Of a stretch of DNA of 33,573 nucleotides, positions 1-33,573 are shown piece by piece. The DNA is from a virus: positions 1 to 33,573 of IMG/VR virus record IMGVR_UViG_3300037847_002069. One strand, 5' to 3'. The number at the start of each line of letters is the position of its first letter. Within the stretch, counting starts at the first letter, position 1. The notes below the pieces were generated by a model that was not told the origin of the DNA, ran no database searches, and was given only the letters and a program-made list of their open reading frames with translations. A program made the position numbers and the translations under genes.

Positions 1-169
1 TGGTTACGTGGGGGTACGTGCATCGACTCGAACCCAAGTATATGAGGGGGCAGAAGTCTAGATATCTTACGAACCGGTACATGTTGGTGTACGAACCAGA
101 CCAAGACATACCACCGTATGAGGAGCTTAAAAAGGTTTACAATACTGAAGTCGTGGCGAGTAGTAAAAT
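1..169. repeat. Terminal overlap, left copy (circular or redundant genome end)
   Basis: Identical to 33405-33573 except at one position (A at 98, C at 33502), which is a synonymous change in a proline codon of the initiator-like gene. The match runs exactly to the end of the window, as expected when an assembler walks past the start of a circular map. The one mismatch suggests population variation or a sequencing error rather than a copied contig end. A true terminal repeat is possible but cannot be separated from assembly overlap here. Confidence 0.9.
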
Positions 170-449
170 GGACGAGCAGACCAAAGAGGAGCGAGAGAAC
201 GTTGAGGGGACGGCATCAACCCTCGATCCGAAGGTAGTGCGTGAGTATCATGCCATGATTTTAAATGCTTGCTCCCAAATATATGGCAATATTCCCAACT
301 ATTCGCCACGAGAAATTGAAATGTACCTACAAGACATTGAAGATCCACCTAAACATGAGGGGTGGATCGAAGTATTTACCCAACTTAAAACGACACACAA
401 CAATTTACCAACCATAAAGGAGGTGTTTAATGTTATTAAAAATAGATGA
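1..449 (+). CDS. Replication-initiator-like winged-helix protein (3' part of origin-spanning gene)
   Basis: This is the C-terminal two-thirds of the gene that begins at 33194; the frame is open from base 3. The complete protein is 219 residues. Its first ~100 residues look like the winged-helix domain of plasmid and phage replication initiators: a THETIEAECPHVQKSTIKKA segment resembling a recognition helix, followed by a WGYVHRLEP wing-like strand. The C-terminal half is polar, with the run YHAMILNACSQIYGNIPNY. It leads the early replication operon and overlaps the next gene by 20 nt. By position it may bind an origin and recruit host polymerase or load the helicase; that is inference. A MarR or DnaD-like regulator is the alternative. 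Confidence 0.7.
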   Translation, partial: VTWGYVHRLEPKYMRGQKSRYLTNRYMLVYEPDQDIPPYEELKKVYNTEVVASSKMDEQTKEERENVEGTASTLDPKVVREYHAMILNACSQIYGNIPNYSPREIEMYLQDIEDPPKHEGWIEVFTQLKTTHNNLPTIKEVFNVIKNR

Positions 450-2799: not shown

Positions 2800-4260
2800 A
2801 TGTGGAAGAACCCACATGGGAAAGGACTCAATGGTGCTGAACGTATTCCTTACAATCTACCTGCGATCTTAGAAGATAAGCACCGAGGAGTGTTCATCTG
2901 CGAGGGGGAAAAAGATTGTGATACTTTAATCATGCACGGCTTTCTCGCTACCACCTACGGAGGAGCCAGTGATGTACCCGATAATGTCCAAACATATTTA
3001 CGAGGACGTAGGGTATTTATCTGTGGTGACTTTGATAAGGCCGGAGGTAAGTTTGTCAAGAGCATGTATGAGAAACTGAATGGGGTAGCTCAAAGTGTAG
3101 CGCACTGTTGGTTACAAAACCCTGCCCAATCAGAGAGCATTAATGATATGACGGATTGGTTTGCACAAGGAGGGAGCGCAGATAAATTAAAAGCGCAAGT
3201 CAAGAGTGCAAAAGGGTACGAGGCATTTCCAGAGAAACCACAAAACTTGATCATGACTTACCATGACATTTTAAATATGCCTCCACCCGTATGGTTAGTG
3301 AAGAACTATTTATTGCAAAACTCTACAGCTATGATATGGGGGCGCAGTGGTTCGTTTAAATCATTCATGGCACTAGACATTGGACTATCGATTAGTACCG
3401 GTAAAGACTTTCACGGTTGTGAAACAACCCAAAAGGATGTGTTATACATTGCCGGAGAGGGTGGCTATGGCTACAAGAATAGGATTGCAGCGTATCAAAA
3501 GCATTACAATCTTGAGATTAAAAACTTTTACTTGATGCCGATTGCAGTAGATTTAATTCACAAAGAACTGGTTGACATATTGATTAATGATGTGCAGTTA
3601 TTGAAACTTGATTTAGGCTTACTCATCATTGACACGATGGCCAGAAATTTTTCTGGGGAAGAAAACAGTGCTAAAGATACCAGTATGTTCATCCAAAATT
3701 TAGATGATCTGCGTGATGTGTTAGGTTGTACCATACTCATTGTCCACCACAGTGGTAAGAATGAGGCTAGTGGAGCCAGAGGTAGTAGTAACATCTATGC
3801 CAGTATGGACACCAGTATTCAAGTTGCAAGGGTAGAGAGTGTTTGTGTCTTGACTTGTGATAAACAAAAAGACAGCGCTCCATTCGAACAGATTGAATTT
3901 GAAATGCAAACCGTCAACTCAATGGACGGAGAAAGTTTAGTTGCCGTGCCAACAGAAACCAGTGTAGACTTTACTCATGACGAACAAGTCTATGAAAGAT
4001 TAAAAACATTATTACTCAAGGAGGGTGAAACAAAAAATCATAAAGATATACCGAAACATCAACGTGTGATTGCACGAGCAAGACTACGTGAGGAATGTTT
4101 AGATTTGTTTGACGGTAAGTCAAACACCAAGAGCAAAGCGTTTGGCCGTTGTTTGGAACGATTGATTCACAGTAATCGTATCTTGTTTTCAGGTACAGCT
4201 ATGGGGAAACAAATGCTTTGGATTAAAGATGAGAATCAAGAAATAGATATAGACTTATAG
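2800..4260 (+). CDS. TOPRIM primase / RepA-like helicase (3' part of frameshifted gene)
   Basis: From ATG 2800 the frame gives 486 residues, but coding similarity continues upstream to about 2700 in the same frame with no start codon, so 2800 is probably not a real start. Residues ~30-85 are a TOPRIM domain: E35-G-E-K-D and the metal motif GDFD (D77, D79). Residues ~170-345 are a RecA-like ATPase of the RepA/AAA_25 type: Walker A GRSGSFKS (181-188), Walker B LLIID (D278), and sensor-like HHSGK (316-320). Together they would prime and unwind at the phage fork. The last ~90 residues may be a small helical DNA-binding domain. No DNA polymerase is encoded nearby, implying use of the host's. Confidence 0.88.
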   Translation: MWKNPHGKGLNGAERIPYNLPAILEDKHRGVFICEGEKDCDTLIMHGFLATTYGGASDVPDNVQTYLRGRRVFICGDFDKAGGKFVKSMYEKLNGVAQSVAHCWLQNPAQSESINDMTDWFAQGGSADKLKAQVKSAKGYEAFPEKPQNLIMTYHDILNMPPPVWLVKNYLLQNSTAMIWGRSGSFKSFMALDIGLSISTGKDFHGCETTQKDVLYIAGEGGYGYKNRIAAYQKHYNLEIKNFYLMPIAVDLIHKELVDILINDVQLLKLDLGLLIIDTMARNFSGEENSAKDTSMFIQNLDDLRDVLGCTILIVHHSGKNEASGARGSSNIYASMDTSIQVARVESVCVLTCDKQKDSAPFEQIEFEMQTVNSMDGESLVAVPTETSVDFTHDEQVYERLKTLLLKEGETKNHKDIPKHQRVIARARLREECLDLFDGKSNTKSKAFGRCLERLIHSNRILFSGTAMGKQMLWIKDENQEIDIDL

Positions 4261-28295: not shown

Positions 28296-28889
28296 CTAAT
28301 AAATTTTGCCGTATAACATGTAGTCTGTTTTATCATGACCAAATTGTTTCATACAGCCTTCTAGTTTGAATTGTAATACAGAAGCCCAGTTATTCGCAAC
28401 CTTATTCTCAGCACGTACTGTAACCTGCATTCGGTGAGCTGCCAGAAACTTTGCTCCTTGATCAATCACAAATTTCGCAGTGCGAGTGGCAGCGACCGGA
28501 TGTTTGTCAAATAATTTACTGCCCATACACCATGCCTCAAACACACCGGGTACCAGTTGCGCAAAGCCAAAACAGGCTGCATGTTGATGTTCATAGAACA
28601 CTGTGACTGCCGGACCCAGTTGTTGGTAGCCTTCTATGTACGCAATGGTTTCGTCAAATGATCCAAAATAAGAATTATCCAAAGCACGATAATCCAAATG
28701 ATAAGCATGATCAGTGTGGTAAGAGCGATAAATAATTCTTTCATTACGGTTTAAACTGTTATAATATGCAATTAACCCCTCTTGGTTGTTTATAGTTAAG
28801 GGTTCGGAATGTTTATGTTGGCTTTCTTGCCTACCCCCTTTGTTAACCGAACCCTTTTTTTTTAGCATATCTTCTAAACTAGAATACAT
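28296..28889 (-). CDS. T7 gp13/DUF2833-like GNAT-fold protein, 197 aa
   Basis: The C-terminal ~120 residues have a GNAT-like layout (VTVFYEHQHAACFGFAQLVP, FEAWCMGSKLFDKHPVAATR, TVRAENKVANNWASVLQFKL, EGCMKQFGHDKTDYMLYGKI), matching the T7 gp13/DUF2833 family of virion-assembly proteins. The frame runs to 28916, but ATG 28889 is preferred: it overlaps the methyltransferase stop by one base and gives MYSSLEDML. A run of nine A (minus strand) encodes KKK near the start and could cause slippage. The first four codons are the same as those of the methyltransferase upstream because of a 15-bp repeat. Confidence 0.75.
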   Translation of the reverse strand: MYSSLEDMLKKKGSVNKGGRQESQHKHSEPLTINNQEGLIAYYNSLNRNERIIYRSYHTDHAYHLDYRALDNSYFGSFDETIAYIEGYQQLGPAVTVFYEHQHAACFGFAQLVPGVFEAWCMGSKLFDKHPVAATRTAKFVIDQGAKFLAAHRMQVTVRAENKVANNWASVLQFKLEGCMKQFGHDKTDYMLYGKIY

Positions 28890-28890
28890 T
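28876..28890. repeat. 15-bp direct repeat, copy 1 (downstream of methyltransferase)
   Basis: AAACTAGAATACATT, identical to 29436-29450 and exactly 560 bp from it. On the minus strand it supplies the start codon and first codons (MYSS) of the gp13-like gene. Confidence 0.9.
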
Positions 28891-29449
28891 AAACTTCGTT
28901 CCCCCATACGTCCCAACCTTCGGTTTTTTCTCTGGCAAAGAGTTCTATTCTTGGTAAATCTCCAAATAATAAATCAATTCGTTTTCTAACCTCGTGTGGT
29001 TTTTTGCTGTGTTTAGTACGCTGTGCAATTACCAGTGATTCTATGTTGTTAAATTTTTTATATTTAGACATTGTACCTTTTACACCTAACAAACAAATCT
29101 CACTACTTTTCATGGTCCACGGAGCTACATTTTTACAGTAGTTGCCTTTTGATGTGGTTTTAATCCAATTAAACGCTATGGTTTTATACTTGAAACCCCA
29201 TGATTTAAATATTTGTAATGCTTCATCTAAGTGCGAATCTGTTACCCACATAAAACATACAGCATCTTTTTGTGTAATTTTTTTTATTGGTAGTTCTTTA
29301 AGTTCTTGTAACTTCATAGTATTGTAATGATTACTTAAAGGCTTTATTTCGCTACCAGTCGTGTTATTAACTGCTGACTTGCTACCATAATTCCAAGGCG
29401 GATCAGCATAAATAATGTTGTATTTTTTATTAGGAAAACTAGAATACAT
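28889..29449 (-). CDS. MT-A70 family N6-adenine DNA methyltransferase, 186 aa
   Basis: The catalytic DPPW motif (residues 16-19, IIYADPPWNYGS), the following SNHYNTM, and FMWVTDSHLDEALQIFKSWG, AFNWIKTT and a C-terminal EVRKRIDLLFGDLPRIELFA are those of MT-A70-type adenine methyltransferases. It would transfer a methyl group from S-adenosylmethionine to adenine N6 in phage DNA, possibly to evade restriction; no partner nuclease is present. The gene lies between terminase and a gp13-like gene and is bounded by a 15-bp direct repeat, implying later insertion. Its start overlaps the terminase stop by 11 nt. Confidence 0.9.
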   Translation of the reverse strand: MYSSFPNKKYNIIYADPPWNYGSKSAVNNTTGSEIKPLSNHYNTMKLQELKELPIKKITQKDAVCFMWVTDSHLDEALQIFKSWGFKYKTIAFNWIKTTSKGNYCKNVAPWTMKSSEICLLGVKGTMSKYKKFNNIESLVIAQRTKHSKKPHEVRKRIDLLFGDLPRIELFAREKTEGWDVWGNEV

Positions 29450-31129: not shown

Positions 31130-31393
31130 CTAGAATTCTAATTCCCAATAGTCCGTAACGCAAGATTTAAGTATAATGGCAAGTCCTCCATACCCTTGGT
31201 CATCGGTCAAGGTATCGGCAATTTTGTAGACTAACTCTGTTTCCTCAACTAAATACCCAATGGTGCGACACTTGACCGCACTGGTGTCTTTGATGCTTTC
31301 CTTGTCGAACCAACTGGCGTCCCCGGTGTGGTCCCACCAGTCAATGATGACAGTAGGGTAGTTACTCTTTTTTTTCTTTAGCTTGGATTTCAT
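31130..31393 (-). CDS. Small protein of unknown function in packaging module, 87 aa
   Basis: The frame runs to 31426, but ATG 31393 is preferred because it limits overlap with the terminase small subunit to 32 nt and gives MKSKLKKKKSNYPTVIIDWW. The sequence (VIIDWWDHTGDASW, IGYLVEETELVYKIADTLTD, GGLAIILKSCVTDYW) has the strand pattern of a small SH3-like barrel seen in other phage proteins. No firm family. AGGACCTG lies at a workable distance upstream. Confidence 0.6.
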   Translation of the reverse strand: MKSKLKKKKSNYPTVIIDWWDHTGDASWFDKESIKDTSAVKCRTIGYLVEETELVYKIADTLTDDQGYGGLAIILKSCVTDYWELEF

Positions 31394-31760
31394 AAGTAGT
31401 TTCAGGTCCTTGTATATTGATTCCAAGCACGGACGGTTTGTTTAGTGAGCTGTCAACATTAAGCATACCGTAGTGTTTGGCAAGCAATCTAAGCGCTGCA
31501 ATCTTATCGTGCATTTCGACTTCAACCTGATTGCCATACTGGGTCGGTAGTATCTTGACCTTCTTGATCGCACGCTTAGTGCGTTCTGGCAAGTTGGCAC
31601 TGTCCTTGACCTGTACTCGGCCGTTGCTGTCCCACTCCAATATGTCCGTGAGTTCACTAGCTCCGATAGCGGCGAGTTCTTGTTCGACTGCTTCTCGTTT
31701 GGCCTGTTGGTCAGATTTCAATAAAGCCTTAGCTTCCCTTAATGACAGTGCTTTTGACAT
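31362..31760 (-). CDS. terS: Terminase small subunit, 132 aa
   Basis: The N-terminal part is helical (LREAKALLKSDQQAKREAVE). The region EVEMHDKIAALRLLAKHYGM is the typical helical end of Terminase_2/Nu1-type small subunits. It recognises the phage DNA and recruits the large subunit. The start at 31760 is the only sensible one (the next Met is residue 100). It has no Shine-Dalgarno and lies only 7 nt after a consensus -10 box, so it is probably translated from a leaderless mRNA. It is the first gene of the leftward late unit. Confidence 0.85.
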   Translation of the reverse strand: MSKALSLREAKALLKSDQQAKREAVEQELAAIGASELTDILEWDSNGRVQVKDSANLPERTKRAIKKVKILPTQYGNQVEVEMHDKIAALRLLAKHYGMLNVDSSLNKPSVLGINIQGPETTYEIQAKEKKE

Positions 31761-31766
31761 AGCTTC

Positions 31767-31794
31767 ATTATAGGACTTTTACAAAAAATGACAA
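31767..31794 (-). promoter_or_regulatory. Late promoter (sigma70-like) for the leftward unit
   Basis: Minus strand: TTGTCA (31794-31789), 16-nt spacer, perfect TATAAT (31772-31767). Expected transcript start at about 31760, coinciding with the A of the terminase small subunit ATG. The -35 is itself one copy of the TGTCAT motif, so a repressor of that motif would block it. Confidence 0.7.
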
Positions 31795-32052
31795 AAATTT
31801 TTTATGACACCCCCTGTCACAATGGGGACCACCACCCCCCCGTATAGCCATGTTGCGCATACAGTGGCCATTGTTACATGTGAAACGGCCTACAATGGCG
31901 TCAGGACAACAAGTTAACATAATGTATCTTATGCGTAATAGGTAGGTTTACCACCAGATGCGCCTATTGTGTGTGTGTGGGGTTATATTTGATCTAATAA
32001 TTGGTTTCATACTTCCATTTATAAGGGTACATAATAAGTTATAAATTAATAG
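31795..32052. other. Divergent control region, no gene
   Basis: About 260 bp between the late and first early promoters with no convincing ORF. It contains ATGACA (31804-31809) forming TGACA-CCCCC-TGTCA (31805-31819), an inverted repeat GCCATTGT/ACAATGGC (31867-31874 and 31892-31899, 17-nt spacer), repeated ATGCG-type words (31939, 31959) and a GT tract near 31970. These are candidate operators. Confidence 0.5.
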
Positions 32053-32080
32053 TTGACATATTAAAATACATAGGTATTAT
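32053..32080 (+). promoter_or_regulatory. Early promoter 1 (sigma70-like)
   Basis: TTGACA (32053-32058), 16-nt spacer, TATTAT (32075-32080). The leader TACATAAACAA begins 34 nt after the -35 and leads to AAAGGAG and ATG 32112. The same arrangement is repeated at 32601. Confidence 0.75.
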
Positions 32081-32111
32081 TTTAATTACATAAACAAACA
32101 AAGGAGTTAAG

Positions 32112-32273
32112 ATGAAGACATTTAAATATAAAGTAATATATAGTTCAATCTGGGCTGCCCCAGAAATATATCTTGTCAACACATTAGAAGACGTAAATCT
32201 TTTGAAATATCATGGTAGAGAAGAACAATATTTAGTAGAAGTAGAAGAAGGCAATTTCAGTATTAATGATTAA
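32112..32273 (+). CDS. 53-aa early protein of unknown function
   Basis: A free-standing mini-gene with its own promoter (32053), AAAGGAG site and strong terminator (32314), so it is a separate transcript and likely strongly expressed early. The sequence MKTFKYKVIYSSIWAAPEIY then LVNTLEDVNLLKYHGREEQY and an acidic end (VEVEEGNFSIND) shows a mixed strand-helix pattern with no signal or membrane segment. Early, isolated, acidic mini-proteins are often host-takeover factors; that is only a suggestion. Confidence 0.75.
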   Translation: MKTFKYKVIYSSIWAAPEIYLVNTLEDVNLLKYHGREEQYLVEVEEGNFSIND

Positions 32274-32313
32274 ATAAATTTTGACTCCAACGGCCACCTC
32301 GAGGCCACCACTT

Positions 32314-32341
32314 GAGCCGGATCCGTCCGGCTCTTTTTTTT
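32314..32341 (+). terminator. Rho-independent terminator after the 53-aa gene
   Basis: Perfect 7-bp stem GAGCCGG/CCGGCTC (32314-32320 and 32327-32333) with an ATCCGT loop followed by eight T. It isolates the first early gene from the operon beyond. Just upstream is a short direct repeat GGCCACC (32292, 32303). Confidence 0.93.
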
Positions 32342-32363
32342 AGTTTTCATTAGGTACTAATCA

Positions 32364-32579
32364 AATGACAAGGATGACAAGTGACATACACCCTATATAT
32401 AGGGTGTGTACTGTCATGTCATTTCAATCCTCTTTGTGTCATTGTGTCATTGCTGTGTCATTTCAAAAGTTGAGTAAAAACAATAACTTCTAGAACACAA
32501 TGACAGGAGATGACACCACCTTTGTAAGGTGTCATTGTAAAGATTGCGAGCAATGACATAGGTTTGAACAGGTGTCATT
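32364..32579. repeat. Array of 12 ATGACA/TGTCAT motifs (operator cluster or origin)
   Basis: Exact ATGACA starts at 32365, 32374, 32500, 32510 and 32553; exact TGTCAT starts at 32412, 32417, 32437, 32445, 32456, 32530 and 32573; GTGACA is at 32381. Most extend to GTGTCATT or AATGACA. Orientation is mixed, with pairs such as ATGACACC/GGTGTCAT (32510-32535) forming inverted repeats. About 0.1 would be expected by chance in this length. It holds no gene and separates a terminator from early promoter 2. Confidence 0.85.
32388..32407. repeat. 20-bp perfect palindrome
   Basis: ACACCCTATATATAGGGTGT is a perfect inverted repeat centred at 32397.5, with three ATGACA-type sites to its left and TGTCAT copies to its right. 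A dimeric binding site or cruciform is possible. Confidence 0.9.
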
Positions 32580-32600
32580 TCAAATAACATAAAAAAGGGG

Positions 32601-32628
32601 TTGACATACCTAGTTATATATGAATAAT
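32601..32628 (+). promoter_or_regulatory. Early promoter 2 (sigma70-like), main early operon
   Basis: TTGACA (32601-32606), 16-nt spacer, AATAAT (32623-32628). The leader TACATAAACAA starts 34 nt after the -35, exactly as at promoter 1, and leads to CAAAGGAGG and ATG 32664. It directly follows the TGTCAT array. Confidence 0.75.
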
Positions 32629-32663
32629 AGGGGGTACATAAACAACCAACAAAGGAGGTAACT

Positions 32664-32735
32664 ATGGTATTAGGTGTATTATTAGCCGCACATTATTTTG
32701 TGCTAGTTCCTGAAATCATTAAAGCAATCGCATAA
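32664..32735 (+). CDS. 23-aa hydrophobic peptide
   Basis: First gene behind early promoter 2, with a near-perfect AAAGGAGGT site. The product MVLGVLLAAHYFVLVPEIIK plus AIA is almost wholly hydrophobic and would lie in the membrane. It overlaps the next gene by one base (TAATG). It could be a toxin-like or regulatory micropeptide, or serve mainly to couple translation. Confidence 0.55.
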   Translation: MVLGVLLAAHYFVLVPEIIKAIA

Positions 32736-32842
32736 TGAACAGGGTATTCAACAAACTTATCTTATCCATAAAAATAGGGTTGCTTCTAGTGGTTCCACTA
32801 GGGGCGCTCTTTTTAGGGGTAGTCATTTTAATTAACTATTAA
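32735..32842 (+). CDS. 35-aa single-pass membrane protein
   Basis: Short basic N-terminus (MNRVFNKLILSIK) followed by one membrane helix (IGLLLVVPLGALFLGVVILI). It has no separate Shine-Dalgarno and is coupled to the 23-aa gene by TAATG. Early phage membrane micropeptides can alter host envelope or exclude other phages, but no evidence for a particular role is visible. Confidence 0.55.
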   Translation: MNRVFNKLILSIKIGLLLVVPLGALFLGVVILINY

Positions 32843-32855
32843 CAAGGGGGAAACG

Positions 32856-33071
32856 ATGAAATTAAATGATAAACATGAGGCAGCCGACCTAATTTATTGG
32901 CATATTTTAGATACATTGCCAGATGATGTCAGGAAATTATGTGTTAAACCTAACTATGAAAAAGGGGGGACAGTAAACACAGAAACAGGCACAGATTTAC
33001 TCTTTGGTATTGAAGATATATTAGCTGAATATTGTGAGGAATTACAATTACAAGGGGGGAACGATGAGTAA
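32856..33071 (+). CDS. 71-aa acidic early protein
   Basis: Begins MKLNDKHEAADLIYWHILDT behind an AAGGGGG site. The rest (LPDDVRKLCVKPNYEKGGTV, TDLLFGIEDILAEYCEELQL) suggests a small helical, soluble, acidic protein. No family recognised. Its stop lies 8 nt inside the next gene in the junction ACGATGAGTAA, so translation is coupled. Confidence 0.7.
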   Translation: MKLNDKHEAADLIYWHILDTLPDDVRKLCVKPNYEKGGTVNTETGTDLLFGIEDILAEYCEELQLQGGNDE

Positions 33072-33201
33072 AGAAAATATATTAGTAAGAGTCTATAAAG
33101 ATGTTTATGTAGAAGATGATGACGACTACATAGAAAATGCTATTGAATTAGCGACAGACTTTGCAGGTGATTTTGATGTAGAGATAATAGACGATGAGTA
33201 A
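33064..33201 (+). CDS. 45-aa acidic early protein
   Basis: MSKENILVRVYKDVYVEDDD, then DYIENAIELATDFAGDFDVE and a DDE end. It has a strand-helix-strand feel and very high negative charge, which could mimic DNA or bind a basic partner. It starts behind AAGGGGGG in the junction ACGATGAGTAA, and an identical junction starts the following gene exactly 130 nt later. Confidence 0.65.
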   Translation: MSKENILVRVYKDVYVEDDDDYIENAIELATDFAGDFDVEIIDDE

Positions 33202-33573
33202 ATTCAAGGAATACAAGACCAAGTATTCAATCTTGCCGGCTCGCATCATTGGGGATAAACGGTTCAAGATAGCGCACTACAATGTGATGTGTTGTTTTGG
33301 GGTGCATGCCGGTAAGTCCGGCCTGATCTACTGCACCCACGAAACGATAGAGGCCGAGTGTCCCCACGTCCAGAAGTCCACGATTAAAAAGGCAATCAAT
33401 GACTTGGTTACGTGGGGGTACGTGCATCGACTCGAACCCAAGTATATGAGGGGGCAGAAGTCTAGATATCTTACGAACCGGTACATGTTGGTGTACGAAC
33501 CCGACCAAGACATACCACCGTATGAGGAGCTTAAAAAGGTTTACAATACTGAAGTCGTGGCGAGTAGTAAAAT
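33194..33573 (+). CDS. Replication-initiator-like winged-helix protein (5' part of origin-spanning gene)
   Basis: Start ATG 33194, within the ACGATGAGTAA overlap with the 45-aa gene; the frame continues across the contig end to 449 for a total of 219 residues. The N-terminal ~100 residues contain the winged-helix: strand and helix (ILPARIIGDKRFKIAHYNVM), helix-turn-helix (GLIYCTHETIEAECPHVQKS, TIKKAINDLVTWGYVHRLE) and a basic wing (MRGQKSRYLTNRYMLVYE). This resembles initiator proteins of phages and plasmids that use host polymerase. It may recognise the repeat array at 32.4 kb, about 0.6-0.8 kb upstream; this is inference. Confidence 0.72.
   Translation, partial: MSKFKEYKTKYSILPARIIGDKRFKIAHYNVMCCFGVHAGKSGLIYCTHETIEAECPHVQKSTIKKAINDLVTWGYVHRLEPKYMRGQKSRYLTNRYMLVYEPDQDIPPYEELKKVYNTEVVASSK
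33405..33573. repeat. Terminal overlap, right copy
   Basis: Second copy of bases 1-169. Joining position 33404 to position 1 restores one uninterrupted reading frame (33194 through 449), so the molecule is best treated as circular or circularly permuted with about 33,404 unique bases. Confidence 0.9.

Follow-up and report, generated by a model that had tools for sequence, protein, structure and literature searches.

A two-orientation iteron array as the probable replication origin of a phage with a RepA-type primase-helicase

The 33,573-base virus record IMGVR_UViG_3300037847_002069, which in its full length is the window analysed here, holds a dense array of short repeats that is probably the replication origin of this phage, at which the phage's own RepA-type primase-helicase would bind ATGACA iterons through a C-terminal winged helix and load itself. 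We favor an origin because relatives keep the array together with its palindrome, because the link between such arrays and this type of helicase is family-wide, and because the cumulative GC skew has its minimum at the array.

The array lies in a non-coding stretch between the gene for the terminase small subunit (31362-31760, minus strand), which was used as the synteny anchor in comparisons with relatives, and the plus-strand early genes. It spans positions 32365 to 32578, and within these 214 bp the exact hexamer TGTCAT/ATGACA occurs 12 times in both orientations, accompanied by one GTGACA at 32381. ATGACA is the top-clustered 6-mer of the whole record with 12 copies in about 215 bp, the runners-up being AATGAC with 9 copies, which come from the same sites, and AAAAAA with 7. 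Over the whole record the hexamer is found 40 times against 28.9 in dinucleotide shuffles, and these shuffles give a chance expectation of about 0.19 copies in 215 bp. A sequence-only reading of the window had listed twelve exact hexamers plus GTGACA in about 215 bp, and our count bears this out, with an expectation of about 0.2 rather than the about 0.1 that it gave. Its statement that most sites carry a longer consensus did not hold: the full GTGTCATT is present at only 5 of the 12 sites, and TGTCATT at 9 of the 12.

The same reading had the array surrounding a 20-bp palindrome. The palindrome, ACACCCTATATATAGGGTGT at 32388-32407, is indeed perfect and is flanked on both sides by inverted iterons, but it is off-centre in the array: three sites on its left face it, and two sites directly adjoin it on the right in the opposite orientation. 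A 38-bp stretch of 74% A+T (32462-32499), a candidate unwinding element, divides the array into left and right sub-sets. The iterons occupy 32365-32386, 32412-32461 and 32500-32578, and a second, imperfect dyad, ATGACACCACCTTTGTAAGGTGTCAT at 32510-32535, is formed by two inverted iterons; the array, the spacer and both dyads have no assigned strand. On the plus strand, a terminator-like hairpin followed by a T run (32314-32333) would stop a short transcript from upstream ahead of the array, and just to the right of the array is a sigma-70-like early promoter (TTGACA-16-AATAAT, 32601-32628). An Rfam search of 31700-33200 recovered no RNA family, and blastn of the array region against named phages and plasmids gave no match. 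The cumulative GC skew, a check proposed in the sequence-only reading, reaches its minimum at about 31-32 kb, at the array; this fits an origin, yet the same place is also the point at which gene direction changes.

The two ends of the record (1-169 and 33405-33573) repeat each other over 169 bp with a single mismatch at position 98, suggesting a circular or terminally redundant genome in which the gene for an O-like winged-helix replication initiator spans the junction, with its first part at 33194-33571 and its remainder at 18-449 (both plus strand). Further plus-strand genes are a partner ORF of about 190 aa (430-996), which adjoins the initiator in array-bearing relatives, a ParG-like ribbon-helix-helix (RHH) protein (1264-1458; Pfam PF09274, 24.8 bits against a cut-off of 21.4) and the primase-helicase (2800-4260), our proposed iteron-binding initiator helicase. 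The array thus stands about 3.6 kb before the helicase gene and beside the O-like initiator. The N-terminal domain of the primase-helicase is found in a separate overlapping frame (2441-2725 against 2800-4260). In the nearest relatives the open frame is similarly short (530-541 aa), in others there is a single one of about 610 aa, and this may be a conserved gene split or a frameshift. On the minus strand, a promoter before the terminase genes (31766-31800) has a core, aaaaaattttTGTCATttttgg..TATAATG, that is conserved in the two closest relatives, L005 and L006; in L007 and L008 the frame is kept and the hexamer is not. Next to the terminase gene, also on the minus strand, the ORF at 28889-29449 has a DPPW motif and by eye resembles an MT-A70-like adenine methyltransferase.

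The primase-helicase combines a TOPRIM-like part with an AAA_25/RepA-like RecA fold (AAA_25 profile match of 9e-32) and an extra C-terminal domain. Its structural model (pLDDT 86.8) has RSF1010 RepA as the best match (1olo; Z 24.5, rmsd 2.0 over 221 residues), along with T7 gp4, consistent with a RecA-fold hexameric-helicase domain of the RSF1010 RepA type, for which the hexameric state is predicted. The C-terminal domain (3964-4257, plus strand), when modelled alone, shows the order H-E-H-H-E-E and aligns in VIA-align with Z-scores of 7-9 to many winged helices, including those of CAP, ORC, MarR and a RepA_N initiator. A Foldseek search with this domain yielded no match at E<=0.001 and a comparison of its profile with PDB sequences no credible match; we predict a winged helix on account of the secondary-structure order and the VIA-align scores. 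The recognition helix, NTKSKAFGRCLERLIHS, is encoded at about 4120-4170, and its segment NTKSKAFGR is paired with the word ATGACA despite the gap of 3.6 kb to the array.

Comparisons with relatives drew on 80 viral loci collected via the terminase small subunit. Many of these have a similar dense cluster about 1.5-2 kb past the terminase small subunit, built from another word: GGGACA, CGGACA, AGGACA, ATCACA/TGTGAT, ATCTCA or ATCGTA. The gene order in these other-word relatives is helicase, array, the ORF of about 190 aa, O-like initiator and terminase, and the array adjoins the helicase gene at its 3' end. L005 and L006 share the gene order of the studied phage and keep both the array and the palindrome, the latter as the symmetric variants TCAACCCTATATATAGGGTTGA and TCAACCCCTTATAAGGGGTTGA, respectively; 9 array sites are kept in L005, and L006 has 4 sites of TGACA type and 6 of AGGACA type. 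Conservation of the hexamers with gene order in the same intergenic region of related phages, which the sequence-only reading had put forward as a check, is thus observed. No array was detected by this method in A+T-rich relatives with the same gene order (for example, L013 and L018). Across viral contigs the exact 20-bp palindrome was encountered again only in one locus, L004, whose array is that of the studied phage, unchanged, and an identical 20-mer is present in the origin-like region of a Halothiobacillus MAG contig (L300) found via helicase homologues.

A wider view was obtained by collecting homologues of the AAA_25 primase-helicase in viral contigs and in the genomes of bacteria and archaea, which after dereplication gave 96 viral and 78 genome loci. 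At an array threshold of p<1e-4, a two-orientation hexamer array was observed at the 3' end of the helicase gene in 60% of the viral and 45% of the genome loci, against 0.3% and 0.6%, respectively, for random stretches of the same loci and 0.2% and 0.4% for places after other ORFs of at least 150 aa; 30-40% of the helicase loci have no array detectable by this method. The words differ by lineage and include CGGACA, ATCACA, GTGACA, GGTTCA and others. In all, 45 top 6-mers pass p<1e-4, and the number of distinct words is lower than this, since shifted forms of one word are among them. Several named phages have such arrays at the helicase 3' end, namely Rhizobium phages 16-3 (GTGACA, 13 copies) and RHph_N65 (ATCTCC, 12), Alteromonas phage PB15 (GGTTCA, 13), Idiomarinaceae phage 1N2-2 of Idiomarina (GGTACA, 11), and the Roseobacter phages CRP-823 (CTACAA, 11) and CRP-406 (CTGGAA, 8); none was found in the named phages Caulobacter RW and ct76p945. 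The repeats of the named phages are unlisted in the annotation tables of the records examined. In phage 16-3 (locus L335) the 13 GTGACA copies and a palindrome directly follow p101 at 3640-3945 and are absent from the features of the record. Palindromes of the CCCTATAGGG type recur across lineages, CTATAG being present in 20 of the 89 dereplicated origins, where shuffles give 0.8. Three loci (L193, L194 and L195) show, about 170-290 bp past the helicase stop, 7 same-orientation copies of GC.ATGCTAGGG and AGACCC 10 times, repeats that are unlike the mixed-orientation arrays of other loci.

The diversity of words allowed us to ask which protein tracks them, using 54 dereplicated loci with a full-length helicase and an initiator. 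The distance between motifs correlates with the distance between helicase recognition helices at r=0.755, and more weakly with those of the ATPase core (0.49), the rest of the C-terminal domain (0.47-0.49) and the initiator (0.50-0.62). Given the initiator helix, the helicase helix retains a partial correlation of 0.66, a value reached in 0 of 400 permutations, which do not remove phylogeny; given the helicase helix, the partial correlation of the initiator is -0.12. Among pairs with 50-60% identity in the ATPase core, helix similarity is 0.66 for the same word and 0.31 for different words, and the corresponding values for the rest of the C-terminal domain are 0.40 and 0.34. At higher core identity the rest of this domain also differs more in different-word pairs, which indicates that exchange of the whole domain occurs as well. 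GACA-core words accompany 32 of 40 helices of the KAFxR type and 0 of 24 of the RRDAR type, these classes having been drawn after seeing the data. In other lineages the C-terminal part of the helicase gene is the one nearest the array, and part of the covariation is therefore attributable to linkage and shared ancestry.

These observations bear directly on the chief alternative, namely that the array is an origin whose iterons are bound, in the style of lambda O, by the neighboring O-like winged-helix initiator, with the helicase recruited secondarily. Lambda O is well known to bind iterons; in the studied phage about 0.6 kb separates the initiator (phrog_270/391) from the array, and in many relatives its distance to the helicase stop is 0.5-0.9 kb. 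We nevertheless consider this improbable, given that covariation with the initiator recognition helix is lost once the helicase is taken into account. A telling case is the pair L073 and L074, whose initiators are identical at 220 of 222 positions and whose words are CGGACA and AGGACA, respectively; their helicases diverge where the recognition helix begins, KPGSQQ against KANSQQ, and L045/L046 and L068 fit the same rule of helix start and word. Furthermore, arrays are present at helicase 3' ends in genome loci with no detected initiator, the initiator being out of view at most array-bearing genome loci. Conversely, the complete Methylophilales phage MEP301, the nearest named phage by terminase (63% identity), encodes an O-like initiator (E 1e-33) and has neither such a helicase nor an array; in Hodr, likewise, neither was found at the site. 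A tblastn search with the O-like initiator against named phages gave no match.

The sequence-only reading had proposed a multi-operator switch or an origin, with the RHH or a winged-helix initiator protein as binder; the origin has gained support from the relatives, the helicase association and the GC-skew minimum, and neither binder is favored. A switch or partition site bound in the manner of omega and ParG by the ParG-like RHH protein appears still less likely than binding by the O-like initiator. The RHH match to Pfam ParG exceeds the curated cut-off, four members of the studied phage's lineage retain the protein (L007, L326 and L331 among the loci), and the array is upstream of the early promoter, which the RHH protein could regulate in this lineage. 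However, this rival binder is lineage-specific: homologues were seen only in that lineage, and many other lineages have arrays with none found in their loci, in which the genomes are partly in view; as a family-wide binder it was rejected. Moreover, the word of the studied phage is ATGACA and not the omega heptad WATCACW, and a conserved palindrome linked to a replicative helicase would be unexpected for an operator array. It is scarcely credible that the array is a packaging (pac) site for the small subunit of the terminase, encoded 0.6 kb away in the studied phage, given that the repeat words follow the helicase, that prophages and islands with other gene orders still have arrays at their helicase genes, and that in named phages the array is at the helicase 3' end in an annotated stretch with no terminase gene.

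For the favored reading, an origin recognised by the primase-helicase itself, we infer the following course of events from the sequences. The helicase would bind the iteron sets directly through its C-terminal winged helix, and the oppositely oriented sets that flank palindrome and A+T-rich spacer would place two helicase rings for bidirectional unwinding. Upon binding, the helicase would load itself, as the Rep proteins of SaPI/PICI elements do, the strands would open at the A+T-rich spacer or the palindrome, and the TOPRIM part would prime; the O-like initiator may assist at the origin in an auxiliary role. The start signal seems to be particular to each phage, since the same layout with a different word is seen in many phages and prophages.

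More generally, we lean towards the view that the RepA-class (AAA_25) primase-helicases of tailed phages, prophages and islands make up a large class, so far undescribed, of initiators that recognise their own origins, each reading its own hexamer via the first residues of the recognition helix, with the word diversifying and the CCCTATAGGG palindrome being kept. Helix and word would then form a readable code for finding and pairing the origins of uncultured phages, of which GKRRDAR/ATCACA, SARRDAR/ATCGCA, RSRRRDAR/CGCACG and KAFxR/GACA are putative examples. A literature search, in which coverage of subscription papers was thin, found no account of such arrays at AAA_25 helicases. If the proposal is correct, the origins of many phages and prophages that have a RepA-type helicase could be read from the DNA at the helicase gene and the origin word paired with a stretch of about 7 residues. 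It would also provide a natural set of many specificities for studies of winged-helix recognition, carry an origin design that has been described as exclusive to phage-inducible islands over to entire phages whose helicase fold is unrelated, and raise the question of why origin words diversify fast, the avoidance of satellites or of origin-targeting defence being candidate answers.

Among known systems, lambda O resembles the present case in being a winged-helix initiator beside an iteron origin in a phage, but the four iterons of lambda are long and inside the O gene, those of the studied phage are short hexamers outside coding sequence, and the motif does not follow the O-like initiator (as judged from the partial correlation, L073/L074 and MEP301). 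The operator arrays of omega and ParG likewise consist of short two-orientation repeats upstream of a promoter, but their repeat words are different, and the RHH protein is confined to the lineage of the studied phage among the loci seen, with genomes partly in view. In RSF1010 a separate protein, RepC, binds the 20-bp iterons of oriV, and RepA is not known to have a C-terminal winged helix; the helicase fold is common to both systems. In the alpha protein of satellite phage P4, primase and helicase are likewise fused, and a winged helix at the C-terminus binds short iterons of either orientation (type I iterons of ori1 and crr), an arrangement like that proposed here; the protein differs in its helicase fold and in its need for two separate sites.

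Close parallels are the Rep-ori modules of SaPI/PICI elements, in which an A+T-rich stretch is flanked by two sets of short iterons, as a rule immediately 3' of rep, and the helicase loads itself (PMC7581432, PMC6092414), and the replication proteins SaPI Rep and SCCmec Cch2, in which iterons located past the helicase gene, on its downstream side, are bound by the C-terminal domain (PMC7581432). Like SaPIbov1, EcCICFT073 and Cch2, the studied phage has two sets of short iterons with an A+T-rich stretch between them. Unlike them, its array precedes the helicase gene, although in most relatives it is directly 3' of it; the helicase has an RSF1010 RepA/T7 gp4-like RecA fold in place of DUF927 or D5/Primase_C; and the elements include whole phages in which the CCCTATAGGG-type palindrome recurs. 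Finally, while in PICI and SaPI helicases a C-terminal domain binds the iterons, the domain in the present family is a predicted winged helix whose recognition helix covaries with the repeat word.
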